A DNA stretch of 64,000 nt. Source: Glycomyces terrestris. Its GTDB lineage: Bacteria; Actinomycetota; Actinomycetes; Mycobacteriales; Micromonosporaceae. The notes under the pieces were generated by a model, which had not been told where the DNA came from, made no database searches, and worked only from the letters and a program-made list of their open reading frames with translations. Shown here one piece after another: positions 8,034 through 58,639 of the stretch; position 1 is the first letter of the stretch; each line of letters opens with the position of its first letter. Location of the stretch: the NCBI RefSeq assembly GCF_003933745.1, contig NZ_RSEB01000004.1, positions 1 to 64,000 on the forward strand, read 5' to 3'. The translations under genes and the position numbers were made by a program.

Positions 8034-8283
8034 GACCGGGGCCCCCGGCCGGCGTCGCACCCTCGCATGACCGGCCGGAGACCCCGCGGTGTCCGGGCAC
8101 CTGCTAGGCCCAGTCGCGAATCCTCATCTCTGTTCCTTTCCGCCGGAACGTGAAAGGGAACGCGCGCTCCGGCCCCCTGATCGTGCCCGCGCCCCCGGCG
8201 CCCGTGCCGTTCCCGAACGAAACCGAACGGCGGCGCGCGGGAGTGTCGCCGGGCCGGGCTACCGTTCCCACAGAGGAGGTGCC
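8034..8283. promoter_or_regulatory. Intergenic region with an inverted repeat and a 7-residue mini-ORF
   Basis: An imperfect dyad GTTCCTTTC (8132-8140) / GAAAGGGAAC (8152-8161) could be an operator. On the minus strand a tiny frame at 8127-8104 encodes MRIRDWA and is preceded by AAAGGA. It may be chance or a leader peptide, but nothing lies downstream on that strand for it to control. A strong AGGAGGTG (8273-8280) serves the next gene. No larger gene is visible. Confidence 0.35.
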
Positions 8284-10731
8284 GTGCCCCAGCCGCCAAG
8301 CGACCCGCGAACGTTCCAGGTCCTCGACGACCTGGCCGGATACCTGCGCGAACTGCGCGCCGCGGCCGGCGGCACCCCATTCCGGGCCATCCGCGCCGGC
8401 ATCCGCGACCTCCACCGGCAGCGCTCCGCGCCGGAGGAGCCCCCGTCCCTGTCCGCGCTCCACGGCTACTTCCAGAACGGCCGCACCCGCATGGACCCCG
8501 GCACCGTCCTCGACATCGCCCGCGTCCTCGGCCTCGGACCCGACGGGCTGCAAGCGCTCGACCAGGCCTGCCGCCGCGTCCTCGACCGCGCCAACCGCGC
8601 CCTCATCGTCGCCACCCGCGACGCCGTCCCCGCCCCCACCGCCCACTTCACCGGGCGCCGCGCCGAACGCGACCGCATCGGCGCCCTCGTCGCCGCCGCC
8701 CACGCGGCCGGACGGGCCGCCGTCGTCGCCGTCGAAGGCATGCCCGGCATCGGCAAGACCGAACTCGTCCACCAGGCCGCCCGCGACCTCGCCGACGCCG
8801 GCCGCACCGACGGCACCCACCTGTACGCCGACCTGCGCGGCCACGACCCCCTCGACCCGCCCGCCGCCCCCGACGCCGTCGTCCGCGGCTTCCTGCGCCA
8901 CCTCGGCGTGCCCGGCCGCCGCATCGACGCCCTCACGCCCGCCGCCCGCGCCGCCCTCCTCCACGCCGAACTCGCCCCCCGCCGCGCCCTCCTCGTCCTC
9001 GACAACGCCGCCGACGCCGCCCAGCTGCGCCCCCTCCTGCCCCGCGGCCCCGGCGCCACCGCCCTGATCACCAGCCGCCGCCGCCTCGCCGACCTCGACG
9101 CCGACCGGCTCCACCTCGACGCCGTCGACCTCGAGGCCGCCCTCGACCTGCTCCGCCGCCACGACCCCACCGGCCGCCTCGACCGCGCCCCCCGCGAGGC
9201 CGCCGCCCTCGTCGACCTCTGCCGCCACCTGCCCCTCGACCTCGCCGCCCTCGGACGCCAACTCGCCGGCAAACCCGACTGGGACCTCGCCGACCACGTC
9301 GAGCGCCTCCGCCGCATCCCGCCGCACGAGCACAGCGGCCCCGCCCTCGCCCTCTCCTACGACGGCCTCCCCGCCCCCGCCCAGCGCCTCTTCCGCCTCC
9401 TCGCCGTCCACCCCGGACACCGCATCACCCCCGCCGGCGCCGCCGCGCTCGCCGCCGGCGCCGTGCCCGACGTCCCCGCCGCCCTCGCCCGCCTCTACGA
9501 CGAGAGCCTCCTCCTGCGCCGCGGCGACGGCCCCTACGAGTTCCACGACACCGTCCGCGCCTACGCCACCGACCTCGCCCACCGCGAGGACCCCGCCAGC
9601 CGCCAGCGCGCCGCGATCGGCCGCCTCCTCCGCCACTACCGCGACCGCCTCGCCGACCCCGCGAACGCCTGGCTCGAAGCCGAGCGCGACGAACTCCTCG
9701 CCTGCCTCCACCTCGGCGGCCACGACGACGCCGTCGCCGACCTCGCGCGGCTCCTCAACCGGCGCCTGCGCCTCCTCGGCCACTACGGCGACGCCCGCAT
9801 CTGCAACCGCCAGCTCCTGCGCCTCGCCCACCGCACCGGGAACCTCGCCTGGGAGGCCGACGCCCTCGCCGGCCTCGCCGAGATCGACCGCCTCACCGGC
9901 CGGTTCCGCACCGCCACCGCGGGATTCGAGGAGGCGCTGCGCCTGCGCCGCCTGACCGGCGACCGCGCCGGCGAGGCCGACGCCCTCCGCGGCCTCGCCC
10001 AGACCGCCTCCAACCACGACTACCCGACCGCCGCCCGCCGCTACCGGGCCGCCCTCCGGATCCACCGCGACCTCGGCAACCGCACCGGCGAAGCCGAGAC
10101 CCTCTGGGGCCTCGCCGAGATCGCCATGTCCCTCGGCCGCCACACCGAGGCCGCCACCCACGCCGCCGCCGTCGCCGCCATCTGCCGCGGCATCGGCAAC
10201 CGCGTCGGCGAAGCCTACGGCCTGCGCGCCCTCGGCGACGTCGCCGCCGCCCGCGGCCGCCTCGACGACGCGCGCGCCCACTACCGGCGGTCCCTCGCGC
10301 TCTGCCGCCGCACCGGCAACCGGCGCGGCGCCGCCAACGCCTGGCGCGGCCTCGCCGACACCGCGCTGCGCGCCGGACGCCTCGACCGCTCCGAACGCCT
10401 CCACCGGCGCGCCCTCGACGGCTCCCGCGCCATCGGCGACATCGCCGGGGAGGCCGACGCGCTCCGCGGCCTCGCCGAGACCGCCGCCGCCCGCGGCGAC
10501 CTCGCCGCCGCGGCCGACCGCTTCCGCCGCGCCCTGGAGATCTACCGCTCCACCGACGACCGCCACGGCCAGGTCCACTGCCTCGAGGGCCTCGCCCGCG
10601 CCGCCGACCGCCCCGCCCGCGCCCGCCGCCACCGGCAGCAGGCCCTCGCGCTCGCCGAGGCCGCCGGCATCCCGCTCGCGGCCGACCTGCGGCGCGCCCT
10701 CGCCGCCCCCGAACTGTCCACCATAGACTGA
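8284..10731 (+). CDS. NB-ARC / tetratricopeptide protein with short N-terminal HTH-like region (AfsR-like, no SARP domain)
   Basis: The product is 815 residues. The first 110 residues resemble the helix-turn-helix head of actinomycete NB-ARC regulators (SALHGYFQNGR, DPGTVLDIARVLGL). The STAND ATPase follows: Walker A GMPGIGKTEL near residue 153, Walker B ALLVLDNAADA, the RNBS-B-like ALITSRRRL and a winged-helix region. The C-terminal half has about six TPR-like units with a recurring GEADALRGLAE core. Such proteins act as ATP-dependent regulatory switches. AGGAGGTG directly before GTG 8284 fixes the start; longer upstream frames lack a site. It stands alone and its target is unknown. Confidence 0.85.
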   Translation: MPQPPSDPRTFQVLDDLAGYLRELRAAAGGTPFRAIRAGIRDLHRQRSAPEEPPSLSALHGYFQNGRTRMDPGTVLDIARVLGLGPDGLQALDQACRRVLDRANRALIVATRDAVPAPTAHFTGRRAERDRIGALVAAAHAAGRAAVVAVEGMPGIGKTELVHQAARDLADAGRTDGTHLYADLRGHDPLDPPAAPDAVVRGFLRHLGVPGRRIDALTPAARAALLHAELAPRRALLVLDNAADAAQLRPLLPRGPGATALITSRRRLADLDADRLHLDAVDLEAALDLLRRHDPTGRLDRAPREAAALVDLCRHLPLDLAALGRQLAGKPDWDLADHVERLRRIPPHEHSGPALALSYDGLPAPAQRLFRLLAVHPGHRITPAGAAALAAGAVPDVPAALARLYDESLLLRRGDGPYEFHDTVRAYATDLAHREDPASRQRAAIGRLLRHYRDRLADPANAWLEAERDELLACLHLGGHDDAVADLARLLNRRLRLLGHYGDARICNRQLLRLAHRTGNLAWEADALAGLAEIDRLTGRFRTATAGFEEALRLRRLTGDRAGEADALRGLAQTASNHDYPTAARRYRAALRIHRDLGNRTGEAETLWGLAEIAMSLGRHTEAATHAAAVAAICRGIGNRVGEAYGLRALGDVAAARGRLDDARAHYRRSLALCRRTGNRRGAANAWRGLADTALRAGRLDRSERLHRRALDGSRAIGDIAGEADALRGLAETAAARGDLAAAADRFRRALEIYRSTDDRHGQVHCLEGLARAADRPARARRHRQQALALAEAAGIPLAADLRRALAAPELSTID

Positions 10732-52722: not shown

Positions 52723-53598
52723 TCACGCCAGGATCCGCGCCAGCGCCGCCTCGGCGGCGGGCATCCACGTCGGCTTCCCGCCGACCCGGCCCTGCTCGCC
52801 CGCGATCCCGATCTCCAGCAGCGCCACCGTCTTCGCCAGCGCCCGCCCCCTGGCGCGCCGCACCACCGGCTCGTCGGCCCCGTACGCGTCGAGGCACGCC
52901 TCGGCCGCGCCGTCCGGCAGCAAGATCCACGCCGCCGCCAGATCGACCGCCGGATCGCCCACGAACAGATCCCCGAAGTCGACCACGCCCGCCAGCCCGC
53001 CGGCCTCCACGACCACGTTCGCCGGGTGCAGGTCCCCGTGCAGCCACACCCCGGGCCCCTCGTGATCGGGCGCCGCGAGCGCGTCCTTCCACACCGTGCG
53101 GGCGCGCTCGCCGTCCACTTGAGGCAGCCGCCCGAGCGCCTCCTCCAGGTGCGCGCTCATCGCCGCCAGCGGCGCACCGCGACCGTCGTTCGCGGGATGC
53201 CCCGCCGGTCCCTCCACGTGCAGTGCGCGCAGGAACGACGCCAGCGCCACCCCCGCCGCCGGATCGGCGACCGGCTCGACGTCCGCCGGAGTGCCGTGCA
53301 CCCACGTCGTCACCAGCCACGTGCGCGGAAACCGCTCGGACGGCCCGCTCAACCGCACGGGCACCGGCACCGGCAGCGGCAACCGCGACGCCAGCTCCGG
53401 CACCAGCCGGTACTCCCGCTCCAGCAGCGCAGGCGCCCGCTCCGACCGCGGCAGCCGCACCGCCAGATCGGCCCCGAGCCGCCACATCTGGTTGTCCCAG
53501 CCGCCGTCCACGGCCTTGAGCTCGAGCCCCGCCAAGTCCGGATGCCGCTCCTGGAGCAGTTCCCGCAGCTCCCGCTCGCCCATCACCGAATCGCTCAC
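52723..53598 (-). CDS. Aminoglycoside phosphotransferase (APH) family kinase
   Basis: The product is 291 residues. The Brenner motif VWLHGDLHPANVVVE and the metal motif GVVDFGDLFVGDPAVDLA are intact, with the N-lobe Gly-rich region GGWDNQMWRLGADLAVRLPR. The class phosphorylates antibiotics or small metabolites; the particular target is unknown and resistance should not be assumed. GTG 53598 is preceded by GAGGG. It converges directly on the MerR gene (stop codons adjacent). Confidence 0.9.
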   Translation of the reverse strand: MSDSVMGERELRELLQERHPDLAGLELKAVDGGWDNQMWRLGADLAVRLPRSERAPALLEREYRLVPELASRLPLPVPVPVRLSGPSERFPRTWLVTTWVHGTPADVEPVADPAAGVALASFLRALHVEGPAGHPANDGRGAPLAAMSAHLEEALGRLPQVDGERARTVWKDALAAPDHEGPGVWLHGDLHPANVVVEAGGLAGVVDFGDLFVGDPAVDLAAAWILLPDGAAEACLDAYGADEPVVRRARGRALAKTVALLEIGIAGEQGRVGGKPTWMPAAEAALARILA

Positions 53599-54019
53599 CG
53601 TGCACCCTCTCGCCGCGGAGGTGCCACTCTACAACCCCCGGCTCCGCAGTAGCGGTGGCGAGGATGAAGGGGCGCAGAGGCATCGGCGTCTCCGATCGAC
53701 TGGGTCTGCCCCAGATTCGCTCAACCGAAGTGGGAGGGGTTCCGGGTCGCCTCGCAGCCGGGAACAGGCGATCAGGCGAGAATACCCGCAACCGCAACCA
53801 AAGATCACCTTGCGGGACATCGTTTACCCAAGACCAGGACCTGTGACTGAATCACGACATCGACTGCACAGCACCAAACTCAGTCAGGTTGAAACAGCCT
53901 CACTGAACGGCTGAAACCGAACCGCATTCCGAACCGCCGTTTCTGCCTTGAGAGGCTTGCTGATCATATCTGAATATAACTGGTCACAGCTTGGGCAGAA
54001 GACCGCCACCGGGGGATCA
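53599..54019. other. Intergenic gap, left border of the low-GC island
   Basis: I see no gene, terminator or repeat here. From about 53,690 the composition shifts from very GC-rich to roughly balanced, marking the left edge of the island that holds the NLR gene pair. The first 100 bp are the upstream region of the APH-family gene. No direct repeat or integrase remnant is visible. Confidence 0.4.
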
Positions 54020-57000
54020 TTAACCGGGATATTTTCTGTCCCATACTGTCCGGCCAATAAGCTGTAAGCGGCGCCGCTTCTTCCTACGAGCCTGGTGCTT
54101 CAGAAGGTAATCCAGGCTCTGCTGAACGCTGAGCGTGATCGAGTGCCGAGGGCCGAGAGCTTGGCGGCACTGGTTCTTGAGCTGCAGGAGCGCGACCTTG
54201 GCGGCATTCAAGTTTCCACTTGAGGCCCTGCTGTTGGCGAGGCAACGACGGGTCTTGAGGGTCTCGGGGTGGTCAGGGCCGAGTACACGTTGTTGATCCG
54301 CCACGATGCCTTCAAGCTCGGAAATAGTGCCTTGAATATCTCCATTCCTTCCGCGCAGGTGTGCAAGGTTGTGGCGAGTGTCGAGAGTGTCAGTGTGGTC
54401 AGGGCCAAAGACGCGTTGCTGATCGGACAGATTGGCCTCGAACTCTGCTACGGCGCCTTCTGTATCTCCAATTTCGGCGCGATGCTTCGCGAGGCAATGA
54501 CGAGTCTCTAGCGTGCTGGGGTGGTCGGGCCCTAGCACGCGCTGCTGGTCGGAAAGGACAGCTTCGAACTCGGCAATGGCGCCAAGCGAATCCTCGGCCC
54601 AAACGCGCAGATCGGCGAGATTATGGCGAGTGTGAAGAACGTCGGGGTGGTCGGGGCCCAACATACGTTGTTTATCTGCCACGACGGCCTGGAACTCGAC
54701 AACGGCGCCTGGCGCGTCCTTAGCCACCACGCGCAGTTCCGCCAAGCAGTGACGGGTTTCAAGCGTGCCATGATGGTCGGGTCCGAGGATGCGCTGCTGG
54801 TCGGAAAGGACAGATTCGAACTCAGCAATGGCGCCGGGCACATTTCCTGCGTTCGCTCGCAAATGCGCGAGGTTGTGACGTGTGCGGAATACATCGGGGT
54901 GGTTGGGGCCGAAGACGCGTTGCTGATCGGATAGTACGGCTTCGATTTCGGCGATGGCGCTAATTGTATCTCCGGATTTTCCTCGCAGATCAGCGAGGCA
55001 GCGACTTGTCCGAAGCGTATCGGGGTGGTCGGGGCCGAGGACATACTGCTCTCCGGCCAGGACAGTCTCGATTTCAGTAATGGCCCCCTTCGTATCTCCG
55101 GTTCTTTCGCGTAGATGTGCGAGATTATGGAGGGTGTCAAGGGTGTCGGGATGGTCTGGGCCAAAGACGCGCTGCTGGTCGGACAGGATGGACTCGAACT
55201 CTGCGATGGCCTCTTCCGGATTTCCTGCTCTTCCGTGCAGCTGTGCGAGGTGGTGACGCAACTGAAGTGTGTTGGGGTGGTCAGGGCCGAAGACGCGCTG
55301 CTGGTCGGATAGGACGGCGTCGAACTCTGCAATGGCTGCTTCGGTCTTGCCAGCTCTCCCACGCACGTCCGCTAGGCATCGGCGAGAATCGAGTGTATCG
55401 GTGTGGTCAGGACCGAGGACGCGCTGGCGGGCTTTGGTGACGTGTTCCAAGATTTCGATGGCGGTGGCAAGATTCCCAGTTTCAGCCGTCCAGAAGCCCA
55501 GGTAGTGCTGTGCTTCAAGCGTGTCGGCGTGGTTGGCGCCCAGCACCCTGAGGTAATCCTGAATCAATGTTGTATAGCCTTGTGCAGCTGTATTGGCTTC
55601 GCCGGCGATACCAGTGGCGTTCAAGTGTTCGCGGCGAGCAGTGAGAGTATCAGGATGGTCAGGGCCGAGCAGTTCCTGGCAGTCGCGAGCGAGCGATTGT
55701 TGATATCTCTGGGAGGCAGAAGCAGGGTCACGTTCCCGATAACCTAGTGCGGCATGGAATAGGATTGGGTGTGCGCGATCAGAAATCAGGGCAGATTTAG
55801 CATGGCCGAAAAGTGCGAGAACATTCGTCTGCAAGACCGAACCGTTTATGAAACCTGTCCTAGGCCATGTCTCCAGAAGCCCGTCGGCAGCAGTCCGGGC
55901 AGCCTTGGCAAGCTGTTCGTTTGTCAGTTGGTCGCGAATTGCGTGTTGGGCAAGAGCATGAAGGCGAACTTGGCCTCTGTCGAAGTCGAGCAGATTAAGC
56001 CCATGCAACTGTTTTAGGAGGGATTCAATTGCAACGTCGGTCACGGGTGTGGATGACTGTAGATTAAGCCAGGTTCGGACTACTTGACTCGTGAAGAGTT
56101 TAGACGGGATCCCGTTGGGGTCAAGTACGCTTGCTATCTGCAGAAGGAGCTCAGCTGCGCCCTCGGGGTAATAGGTGTTTGCCAAATCAATCGATATCGA
56201 CCAGGTCGTAGCGAGACTGCGGTTGTAGTCGTCGGTCGAGGTGTCTGGACTTGGGAGAAGGTCAGCGAGTCGGTTTTGTCGATCTGCGAGCGCGCGGCGA
56301 TAGTCCTCACAGGACATTAGGTGGAAGCGGTCCTCTCCGCCCAAGGCACGACCGCTAAGGGTGCCGATATGGTCGTTTGCGATGAAGGCAGCGGCCTGTG
56401 CGAGCGCGAACGGCAGGTAACCCAAGTCTGCTGCGAGTTCAGCTGCACCGATGAGCCGCTCGGGATTGGCCCCGAGCCGTTGTGAGAGAAAGGCATTGGC
56501 TTCATCTACGCTAAAGCTGTCAATGATGACGTGTTGGTCGGCCGGAACTTGGAGGTCGCGACGTCGGGTGGTGACTACGGTGGCTCCGCGCTTGGATTCA
56601 GGCGGCCATAGACCCTGCAGGTCACTAGCCTTAGCGAGGTCGTCGAATACGATCAGCCAGCGTAGCCTTGTCGAGGGCGTGGCGAGCCAGGCGAGGAACT
56701 GGCGGGCGCCCTGTTCGGGGTCGTGGGATTCCATGCCTGTGATATCAGCATTAGCCTGGGCAAGAGCACTCAGAATCGATTTGCGGGTCTCGGCCGTCAC
56801 CCAGACCAGCAAGTCCACCTTTCGCGATCTCCAAAGTCGGTTTGCAAGTGCCGCTGCCATCTGGGTCTTGCCCACTCCACCCATGCCTGAAAGGACATAT
56901 CGTGGTTGCGAGCGTCTGGCGCCGGGTTTTGGCAACATCGCAGCGAGCTTGCGATCAATATCTCGGTCAAGCCGTGCGGTGACCATTGTTGGAACGATCC

Positions 57001-57175
57001 CGACCATGTGCGGAAACGCTGCCTTGGGGCGCCGTTGCGGGACGCGTTGCTCGAACAGATTGTACTGCCTAGCGTGGTCACCGTGCAGGAGCCCTTGTGA
57101 GGACCGGTTGTCGAAGTGGCCGAACGCAGCCATGTCTGAATTGTAATGAGGCTCGAATGTGTCAGGGGTCGGCAC
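54020..57175 (-). CDS. NLR-like STAND protein: N-terminal amyloid-type motif, NB-ARC ATPase, about 13 TPRs
   Basis: The product is 1051 residues. Residues 20-42 hold a motif DNR-x3-GLL-x-GDH-x2-Q-x-N-x-F that matches the C-terminus of the upstream protein. NB-ARC follows: Walker A GMGGVGKT (97-104), Walker B RWLIVFDDL, RNBS-B VVTTRRRDL, GYLPFALAQA and LHALAQHAIRD. The C-terminal half is about 13 kinesin-light-chain-like TPRs of 42 residues (LGPDHPDTL...GDxxxAIAEFE) for ligand sensing. GTG 57175 has GGAG six bases upstream; longer frames overlap the partner gene. By analogy with NLR-amyloid pairs it should oligomerise on sensing a trigger and template the partner's motif. Confidence 0.85.
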   Translation of the reverse strand: MPTPDTFEPHYNSDMAAFGHFDNRSSQGLLHGDHARQYNLFEQRVPQRRPKAAFPHMVGIVPTMVTARLDRDIDRKLAAMLPKPGARRSQPRYVLSGMGGVGKTQMAAALANRLWRSRKVDLLVWVTAETRKSILSALAQANADITGMESHDPEQGARQFLAWLATPSTRLRWLIVFDDLAKASDLQGLWPPESKRGATVVTTRRRDLQVPADQHVIIDSFSVDEANAFLSQRLGANPERLIGAAELAADLGYLPFALAQAAAFIANDHIGTLSGRALGGEDRFHLMSCEDYRRALADRQNRLADLLPSPDTSTDDYNRSLATTWSISIDLANTYYPEGAAELLLQIASVLDPNGIPSKLFTSQVVRTWLNLQSSTPVTDVAIESLLKQLHGLNLLDFDRGQVRLHALAQHAIRDQLTNEQLAKAARTAADGLLETWPRTGFINGSVLQTNVLALFGHAKSALISDRAHPILFHAALGYRERDPASASQRYQQSLARDCQELLGPDHPDTLTARREHLNATGIAGEANTAAQGYTTLIQDYLRVLGANHADTLEAQHYLGFWTAETGNLATAIEILEHVTKARQRVLGPDHTDTLDSRRCLADVRGRAGKTEAAIAEFDAVLSDQQRVFGPDHPNTLQLRHHLAQLHGRAGNPEEAIAEFESILSDQQRVFGPDHPDTLDTLHNLAHLRERTGDTKGAITEIETVLAGEQYVLGPDHPDTLRTSRCLADLRGKSGDTISAIAEIEAVLSDQQRVFGPNHPDVFRTRHNLAHLRANAGNVPGAIAEFESVLSDQQRILGPDHHGTLETRHCLAELRVVAKDAPGAVVEFQAVVADKQRMLGPDHPDVLHTRHNLADLRVWAEDSLGAIAEFEAVLSDQQRVLGPDHPSTLETRHCLAKHRAEIGDTEGAVAEFEANLSDQQRVFGPDHTDTLDTRHNLAHLRGRNGDIQGTISELEGIVADQQRVLGPDHPETLKTRRCLANSRASSGNLNAAKVALLQLKNQCRQALGPRHSITLSVQQSLDYLLKHQARRKKRRRLQLIGRTVWDRKYPG
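54130..55690 (-). repeat. 126-bp tandem repeat array encoding TPR units
   Basis: About 13 units of 126 bp lie in frame. Some are highly similar at DNA level; the segment around GGTCAGGGCCGAAGACGCG recurs with few changes. The units encode 42-residue TPRs. High nucleotide similarity between neighbours suggests recent duplication or gene conversion. Confidence 0.85.
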
Positions 57176-57197
57176 AGCATGCTCCGGCGTGAGGAGG

Positions 57198-57578
57198 TCA
57201 GTTGAAGTGGTTGGTCTGGTTGCTGTGGTCGCCAATGAGGATTCCCTTGGCTCCCCGATTGTCCACGACGTACTTCCCGGCTGGCTCCTCCAGCTGCGCC
57301 AATAGTTCCCTGGCCTTCTCAAGAATTGTCTGATCGTCGGCGGCACCCGATTCGATGAGAGCAAAGGCGAGTGTGGATCGGAGGGTCTCAGCCTCAGTGT
57401 GGTCTGCGTCGATCACTGCGTTGGCTTCGAGGCGATCGCCAAGTTTCGTTCTTAGCAAGGTCTTCAGGCCCTGGTATGTGTCAGTGATTAGCGTGGATAC
57501 CGCTTCTTTCGCGCCCAGGCCAGCCCCTGCGGCAGCGCCCGCTGCCAGGGCCGTGAGGATCAACTCGACACCAGTCAT
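57198..57578 (-). CDS. Small effector candidate: Bell-like N-terminus plus C-terminal amyloid (RHIM-like) motif
   Basis: The product is 126 residues. Residues 4-25 are hydrophobic and Gly/Ala-rich (LILTALAAGAAAGAGLG), then helical segments (EAVSTLITDTYQGLKTLL, TILEKARELLAQLEEPAG). This layout resembles the bacterial Bell cell-death domain, from memory. The C-terminus (105-126) is V-DNR-GAK-GILIGDH-SNQTNHF-N, close to bacterial amyloid-signalling motifs of the RHIM type. The NLR encoded 22 bp downstream has a matching copy at its N-terminus. GAAGGGG precedes ATG 57578; the frame extends to 57902 without support. Predicted role: membrane-damaging effector converted by NLR-templated amyloid. Confidence 0.75.
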   Translation of the reverse strand: MTGVELILTALAAGAAAGAGLGAKEAVSTLITDTYQGLKTLLRTKLGDRLEANAVIDADHTEAETLRSTLAFALIESGAADDQTILEKARELLAQLEEPAGKYVVDNRGAKGILIGDHSNQTNHFN

Positions 57579-58204
57579 GGCTTGTACCCCTTCGCACGGC
57601 GAGAACTGCTCACTACGGTAGCAGCGGGTTGGTTTCAGTGCAGGCCACGTCGATACCGATACTGGATCGTGCTGGTTTTGATGGATTCGTATGCCGAGTC
57701 GTAGACCGCTGCGGCGGTCACGATGATGGAGCGGTGCGGTCGCGCGTCTACGGTCGCCAACTCCCGTCCCCGGCGACCTGGACCCGGTTCGCGACCGCGA
57801 GTTGGGTGTGAAGGCGGGGTTCGCCGTTGCGGTTGTCGAAGTAAACGAGAGAGCGCGACCAGGCTGTTCATGTCGACTTGGGGGCCCGTCGGCCACCGAC
57901 ACGTTTAGACGCGGCGTGCTCCTCCAAGTATGGGGGTCAAACTGGGTGAATCGTCGATAGCCGATGGACTCGGCAATGATCTTCCCAGCGAGCTCACCGA
58001 GGTTCTCGTGGCATACCAGCCCGTACTAGGGGGATGAGCTTTCGATGGGGTTGGGCCGGAGGGTCAGGATGCGGGAGACAGTCCGGAGCTGGCCGACAGT
58101 AGCGAGGGCTGACACGGTGGTCTCACAGAGAGGGCAATAGAACCCAGGGGGCAACCAAATTTGGCCCCCTGGGTGATGTACTTACCTTGCATGTGCGGGG
58201 GTGG
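57579..58204. other. Intergenic gap with possible gene relic, right border of the island
   Basis: On the minus strand from about 58140 down to 57800 a coding-like stretch can be read: FYCPLCETTVSALATVGQ, a stop near 58030, then YGLVCHENLGELAGKIIAES and YRRFTQFDPHTWRSTPRL. It has no start or ribosome site and merges out of support further on, so it looks like a decayed gene. I do not recognise the family. The effector promoter may include TACCGT about 45 bp before ATG 57578. Confidence 0.35.
58143..58173. terminator. Terminator-like hairpin downstream of the CBS gene
   Basis: CCCAGGGGGC (58143-58152) pairs with GCCCCCTGGG (58164-58173) around an A/T-rich 11-nt loop, 31 bp after the CBS-domain gene. 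Confidence 0.7.
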
Positions 58205-58639
58205 TCAGGTGACTCCTGAGATGTAGCCCTCGAGTTGGCGCTTCTCGAATTCGAGTTGGCCGATGCGGTTCTTGACGACGTCGCCGATGCTCACGATGCC
58301 GGTGAGGGCGCCGTCGGCGGTGACGACCGGGACGTGGCGGATGCGGCGTTCGGTCATGAGGACCATGAGGTCCTCGATGGAGTCGTCGAGGACGCGAGTG
58401 TGGACTTCGGGCGTCATGATCCGCGAGACGGGGGCGTCGAGCACGTCGGGGTCGGCGTGCAGGCCCCGCGCCACGTCCCGTTCCGAGACGATGCCTTCGA
58501 CGGTGGAGCCGTCGGCGCTCACCACGAGCGCGCCCACGTTGTGCTCGGCGAGGCGGGCCAGCAGGACCCGCACGGAGTCCTCCGGTCGGATGGTCACCAC
58601 GGTCGATCCCTTGGACCGCAAGATGTCGCTGATGCGCAT
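58205..58639 (-). CDS. Tandem CBS-domain protein
   Basis: The product is 144 residues, consisting of two CBS domains (about 1-65 and 75-130), with ADGSTVEGIVSERDVARGL and ADGALTGIVSIGDVVKNRI as the two characteristic loops. Stand-alone CBS pairs bind adenine nucleotides and signal energy state or modulate partner enzymes. GGGAGGG upstream supports ATG 58639. The gene is back at high GC and monocistronic, outside the island. Confidence 0.92.
   Translation of the reverse strand: MRISDILRSKGSTVVTIRPEDSVRVLLARLAEHNVGALVVSADGSTVEGIVSERDVARGLHADPDVLDAPVSRIMTPEVHTRVLDDSIEDLMVLMTERRIRHVPVVTADGALTGIVSIGDVVKNRIGQLEFEKRQLEGYISGVT

Follow-up and report, generated by a model that had tools for sequence, protein, structure and literature searches.

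The locus analysed here raises two linked questions: what a long tandem array of TPR units does in Glycomyces terrestris, and whether those units are still being gained and lost. We examined a stretch of 64,000 nucleotides (contig NZ_RSEB01000004.1, positions 1 to 64,000), referred to below as the window. A sequence-only reading had taken the array for part of a rapidly evolving sensor built of near-identical units. The results imply that the array probably belongs to a two-gene NLR alarm system, and that its expansion is an old one.

A receptor gene and a small effector gene lie in a low-GC island

The array forms the C-terminal part of an NLR-type receptor, in which it follows an N-terminal amyloid-like motif and an NB-ARC NTPase. 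A small gene, here called the effector gene, lies directly upstream on the same strand; its stop codon ends at 57198, and 22 bases separate it from the putative GTG start of the receptor at 57175. The features of the locus are as follows.

53500..58300: low-GC island with both genes, GC 53-64% per 500 bp compared to 69-77% in the surroundings
54020..57175, minus strand: NLR-type receptor gene, 1051 aa; GTG at 57175, preceded by GGAG, is the best start (start codon inferred)
54032..55669, minus strand: 13 tandem TPR units of 126 bp (42 residues); unit k begins at 55669-126(k-1), and unit 13 is a degenerate cap
56468..56896, minus strand: NB-ARC nucleotide-binding core with an intact P-loop, GMGGVGKT
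57047..57109, minus strand: receptor-side amyloid-like motif, residues 23-43, NRSSQGLLHGDHARQYNLFEQ, matching the effector tail
57198..57578, minus strand: effector gene, 126 aa, Bell-like; the N-terminal helix is hydrophobic, a helical bundle follows, and the C-terminal tail is modelled at low confidence
57201..57269, minus strand: amyloid-like motif of the effector, residues 104-126, VVDNRGAKGILIGDHSNQTNHFN; a model based on 32 other effectors gives it 41.9 bits (E 2e-12)

Pfam matches of the receptor were NB-ARC (35.6 bits), TPR_12 (209.5 bits) and TPR_10, and PADLOC gave one weak match, to TRIP13 (13.6 bits). NB-ARC domains occur at 23 places in the G. terrestris genome. A second NB-ARC/TPR protein in the window, at 8071-10728, has a MalT-like TPR region, and TRF reported a 120-bp tandem period at 10157-10504.

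The structure model of the effector, of medium confidence, has five helices and a mean pLDDT of 70, with residues 99-126 below 50. Hydrophobicity (KD19) peaks at 1.62 at residue 4, and in 52 of 54 effectors, that of the window included, the stretch of highest hydrophobicity begins no later than residue 8. At E <= 1e-12 the effector has matches in 47 of the 354 family genomes, its own among them. Pfam contained no match to the effector, and Foldseek gave none to its fold at E <= 0.001. VIA-align returned nothing above Z 5.0 among 190 chains; HeLo, HELL and MLKL chains did not appear, which proves nothing. According to PMC7889193, Bell domains cannot be recognised as homologous to HeLo-type domains.

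Because the two-gene unit lies in a low-GC island, we conclude that the island carrying receptor and effector is probably acquired DNA. The closest receptors in 22 genomes of the genus are 37-46% identical. Among the matches listed, with 4 candidates scored per genome, searches for closer relatives returned the window itself and nothing else, both in 354 family genomes (E <= 1e-100) and at class level in 394 genomes (E 1e-88). Plasmid homologs of the receptor are at most 40.6% identical among the 36 records listed. Relatives of the flanking APH gene occur in all 22 genus genomes and relatives of the flanking CBS gene in 14 of 22. When five stretches around APH relatives were compared with window positions 38-64 kb, the shared ORFs comprised the APH gene with its antisense shadows, one NB-ARC/TPR gene in L139 (43%) and a single match in L142 (36%); no empty insertion site was found in these five stretches. 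In the L139 stretch, from Glycomyces buryatensis (L139:4779-13584), about 4.7 kb separates the APH relative from another NB-ARC/TPR gene, a proximity that reflects either chance or an insertion-prone region.

The effector tail matches the N-terminus of its receptor

The C-terminal tail of the effector, GAKGILIGDHSNQTNHF, matches the N-terminus of the receptor, SSQGLLHGDHARQYNLF; the two align as DNRGAKGILIGDHSNQTNHF (effector) and DNRSSQGLLHGDHARQYNLF (receptor). We compared tails and N-termini at homologous loci, starting from 55 effector places (the window, 2 in the genus and 52 in the family). We kept the 39 loci whose downstream ORF reached 500 aa and whose effector scored 150 or more, and dropped 16; the downstream ORFs of L104, L112, L130 and L134, retained among the 39, look like wrong-frame ORFs. 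The window pair scored 61 compared to a mean of 34.9 for the window effector with non-cognate receptors, and ranked third of the 39. Over all 39 loci the cognate mean was 49.5 vs 34.2 for non-cognate pairs, and none of 20000 permutations was as high. The cognate receptor ranked first at 6 of 39 loci and fell below its own non-cognate mean at 9 of 39, about four of these nine being apparent wrong-frame ORFs and the rest not.

Class A, which is RHIM-like (GVQVGDHNTQTNTF type), accounts for 16 of the 39 tails and class B (YGAVGEFHAPVTF type) for 13, which leaves 10 unclassed; inside both classes the cognate excess holds (A, 151/20000 permutations; B, 177/20000). Tails of class B occur in the homologous effectors, and in most adjacent receptors, at L108-L110, L113, L131-L135 and L138. 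We ran a model based on the tails of 32 other effectors against 475 sequences; the window effector came first, with 41.9 bits, and the window receptor second. The receptor motif is weak when taken alone (8.2 bits, E 0.064; best decoy 2.3 bits). In another member of the genus (G021), the effector (SSQGFVVGD) and the NB-ARC/TPR receptor (DSQGFNVGD) likewise share a motif. What the data show directly is the pair of genes with their domains, the TPR array, and a cognate motif match both here and at homologous loci.

The core of the motif is I-L-I-G in the window effector and L-L-H-G in the receptor, and many relatives have V-Q-V/I-G. The RHIM / BASS3 core is (V/I)-Q-(V/I/L/C)-G. Since neither window protein has this core, we describe the pair as BASS3-like and do not file it as BASS3.

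In G. buryatensis, an effector 71% identical to that of the window (pair at L038:6989-9847) stands beside a different protein, which lacks TPR units and starts with a matching motif, GAKGVQIGDNNLQINVY. Pfam gave no match to this TPR-less protein, in which a P-loop-like GDFGSGKSE was recognised by eye. The retention of the effector next to a different partner implies that the tail motif is what the partners share. It also suggests module exchange, in which effector and motif would be kept and the sensor swapped, as part of the wider reading of sensor evolution given below. A serine-recombinase-like ORF was seen by eye at L038:3-1046 of the same species.

A proposed two-gene alarm system and its alternatives

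The preferred reading, to which we assign a probability of roughly 0.65, is that receptor and effector together make up an NLR alarm system that signals by amyloid, as in the Bell/BASS type, with the old TPR array as its sensing arm; its action is probably self-sacrificing. We infer the ligand, oligomerisation, amyloid formation, membrane attack and the defence role from the architecture of the pair. The TPR array would sense a ligand, by the usual guess a product of a phage or other invader, and binding would release the NB-ARC domain for nucleotide exchange and oligomerisation. An amyloid seed would then arise from the N-terminal motifs of the clustered receptors and serve as template for the matching effector tail, and the templated effector, a small helical protein, would act on the membrane, so that the cell is killed or arrested. 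The literature searched contained no amyloid or death assay of the window pair.

Section 9 of PMC7889193 describes an architecture of an NLR gene and a motif-matched effector gene. As presented in the cited part of that source, the Bell/BASS NLR amyloid signalosomes of multicellular bacteria resemble the window in their adjacent genes, their NLR with an N-terminal motif, their small helical effector with a matching C-terminal motif and their actinobacterial host. The window pair has the shared motif, the adjacent genes on one strand and a small helical-bundle effector with a hydrophobic helix (medium model confidence). However, its ILIG and LLHG cores differ from the VQVG-type core of many relatives, and the likeness is one of architecture and motif match. 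The same part of PMC7889193 presents HELLP/PNT1 of Podospora anserina as a two-gene cluster that, like the window, combines a motif (PP)-NB-ARC-TPR receptor with an effector carrying a RHIM-related motif; HELLP/PNT1 differs in being fungal and experimentally shown.

The strongest of the alternatives, itself unlikely, is that the receptor is a STAND-type signalling or transcription regulator (MalT/AfsR-like) that takes no part in cell death, and that the small upstream protein is its membrane anchor. The number of NB-ARC places in the genome, one of them the MalT-like protein at 8071-10728, agrees with such a regulator, but a DNA-binding domain is absent from the Pfam hits of the receptor, and the match between effector tail and receptor N-terminus is unexpected for a regulator.

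We consider it improbable that the receptor is FxsT, the TPR protein of the FxSxx-COOH peptide-maturation system, even though the NCBI model that would give it this name, NF040586, matches it with 498.1 bits against a cut-off of 300. Window positions 48-64 kb contain no ORF between 25 and ~160 aa that ends in FxSxx, and there was no radical SAM gene among the seven flanking genes tested. Moreover, a homolog that is paired with a motif-matched effector (L039) also passes NF040586, with 369.9 bits, so that the model appears to be broader than the FxSxx-COOH system.

The TPR units of the window are diverged

The estimate of about 13 tandem units encoding 42-residue TPRs was exact: 13 LGPDH-type anchors, spaced by precisely 42 aa, run from aa 503 to 1007 of the receptor. 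An AlphaFold model of the array alone (single sequence) is a solenoid of 26 helices with a mean pLDDT of 90, in which helix A spans unit positions 6-21; helix A lines the TPR groove, according to the cited part of PMC5642895. With 42-residue helix-turn-helix units of TPR_10/TPR_12 type, the array belongs to the 42PR class of TPRs (kinesin light chain; P. anserina 42PR; PDB 4y6c/4y6w and 3nf1), which it resembles in spacing and sequence (best phmmer E 1e-18); among solved structures, these are the closest to it by sequence. The domains around the 42PR array of kinesin light chain differ from those of the receptor.

By contrast, the description of the units as near-identical, with several neighbours very similar, does not hold. 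Any two of the core units 3-11 agree at 55-75% of nucleotides (mean 64%) and 43-71% of amino acids, and TRF detects the 126-bp period at only 65-76% matches. Their mean pS is 0.66, the lowest dS is 0.71, the median dS is 1.6, and 9 of 36 pairs are saturated. Distance along the array has no effect on identity, adjacent units (lag 1, 64.7%, n=8) being no closer than those at lag 7 (65.5%, n=2). High synonymous divergence between all units, which the sequence-only reading had named, along with a constant repeat number in relatives, as the outcome that speaks against its own claim, is therefore what the synonymous distances gave. At position 14 of units 5-12 (window 54283-55165), N and C alternate. 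A two-unit (84-aa) period, which this alternation suggested, was rejected: lag-2 identity exceeded lag-1 identity in just 10 of 31 arrays.

When synonymous codons were redrawn, pS rose to 0.786 +/- 0.021, and none of 300 redraws was as low as the observed value. Thus, the units are related beyond what their protein similarity gives. For 9 of 12 window units the nearest relative lies inside the same array when 42 other arrays are included, a nucleotide-level count that may lean on base composition; amino acids also give 9 of 12. Over all 43 arrays, the nearest unit was within the own array for 103 of 298 units. This excess of shared synonymous states, together with nearest units inside the array, is best read as a lineage-specific expansion long ago. 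Judged from its sequence, the window array appears to have expanded at this locus in the distant past; the units have since diverged and show no recent homogenisation.

These data bear on two further alternatives. It is again improbable that the pair is a decayed cassette that has lost its function, as might be read from the diverged units and from a receptor motif that departs from the family consensus: both frames are open (126 and 1051 aa), the P-loop is intact, and the units keep their amino-acid similarity while synonymous sites are near saturation. The homologous pairs whose motifs do not match count slightly in favour of decay and against the preferred reading. That the units are near-identical and now expanding and contracting is very unlikely, since the exact 42-aa spacing, the locus-specific expansion and the existence of homologs whose arrays behave in this way are outweighed by the 55-75% nucleotide identity, the near-saturated synonymous sites and the missing neighbour effect. 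Unit number is also constant in three groups of plasmid records with diverged-array homologs, which says little because the gene copies in each group are identical DNA.

Some relatives of the receptor carry fresh arrays

From 72 loci we assembled 44 TPR-NLR ORFs, the window's included, with 4 to 13 units per array (partial units counted). In 10 of the 44, at least one pair of units reaches ~90% identity; the window's ORF is 19th in this ranking. One of the ten is a paralogous NB-ARC/TPR gene of 12-13 units in the same genome, ~117 kb away (L043:5775-7379; contig C10, ~176-178 kb), at least two units of which are identical at every nucleotide. This paralog is a fresh array of the kind that had been proposed for the window, and it lies outside it.

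Six Streptomyces records were chosen from 22 plasmid records found by DNA similarity. The N-terminal parts of the encoded homologs are 73-100% identical, and their unit counts, caps included, are 6, 8, 8, 11, 7 and 7. For 36 of the 40 full units in these arrays the closest unit comes from the same array, the S. virginiae pair being excluded from comparison with each other. The S. virginiae plasmids of NBC_01758 and NBC_00168, compared over 8.1 kb, differ by a 252-bp (two-unit) indel and 6 substitutions, all within the TPR array (L151:5292-5457 and L152:5292-5709), and the 3329 bases upstream are without difference; the two-unit difference could in principle include a repeat-assembly error. By eye, the S. 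virginiae effector has two hydrophobic stretches, and a VPGERG...GDGN motif is common to effector and receptor. On an Arthrobacter conjugative plasmid (L144:5923-8828), a relative of the effector and a TPR protein lie beside a Tn3 family transposase.

Unit gain and loss are thus seen in relatives with fresh arrays and not measurably in the window array. The expectation of fast change in copy number gains support from homologs, through the fresh pairs in 10 of 44 ORFs and the two-unit difference between the S. virginiae plasmids; in the old, diverged array that had prompted it, the synonymous distances speak against it.

Among 46 close unit pairs from 15 arrays, pN/pS was 0.55, indicating that change is mostly constrained. 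Nonsynonymous changes are in excess at unit positions 17 and 39, which pass a 42-fold correction, with position 13 nominal (P 0.027) and position 10 borderline (P 0.052), in a test that takes overlapping unit pairs as independent and is indicative only. Of the 160 nonsynonymous codon changes in 24 disjoint pairs, 43 lie at positions 10, 13, 17 and 39, which were picked from the overlapping data.

The cited parts of PMC4986451 and PMC12222747 describe fungal NLRs with TPR or other repeat sensors of high internal conservation, in which repeat number changes and certain positions are hot, as in the relatives of the window gene. PMC4986451 speaks of high internal conservation when repeats exceed 85% identity across 100 aa or more; the core units of the window, with 43-71% amino-acid identity, fall below this value. 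According to PMC12222747, it is in the genomes of fungi and bacteria that WD40 proteins of high internal conservation are commonest. No report of homogenised TPR arrays in bacterial NLRs was found in the literature searched, a search that did not include Dyrka 2020 and Marold 2015.

We tentatively suggest, at slightly less than even odds, that actinobacterial amyloid-type NLRs run the sensor-evolution cycle of fungal incompatibility NLRs. Units would be copied and homogenised inside one gene, their number would change between otherwise identical plasmids, and they would vary most at the helix-A stripe (positions 10, 13 and 17) and at positions 32 and 39. Arrays would then age and freeze, the window's array representing a late stage, while effector and motif would be kept and the sensor exchanged.

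Implications

An NB-ARC/TPR receptor with a motif-matched helical effector is an already known type of system, and the premise of near-identity is wrong for the window array and right for some of its kin. The sensor role proposed for the array gains support from the NLR architecture and from the adjacent motif-matched effector. The first reading is corrected, and the array is placed in a pair of NLR and effector that probably recognise one another through a common tail motif. Two near-identical Streptomyces plasmids that stand two TPR units apart provide a concrete test case for a bacterial counterpart of fungal repeat-sensor evolution.
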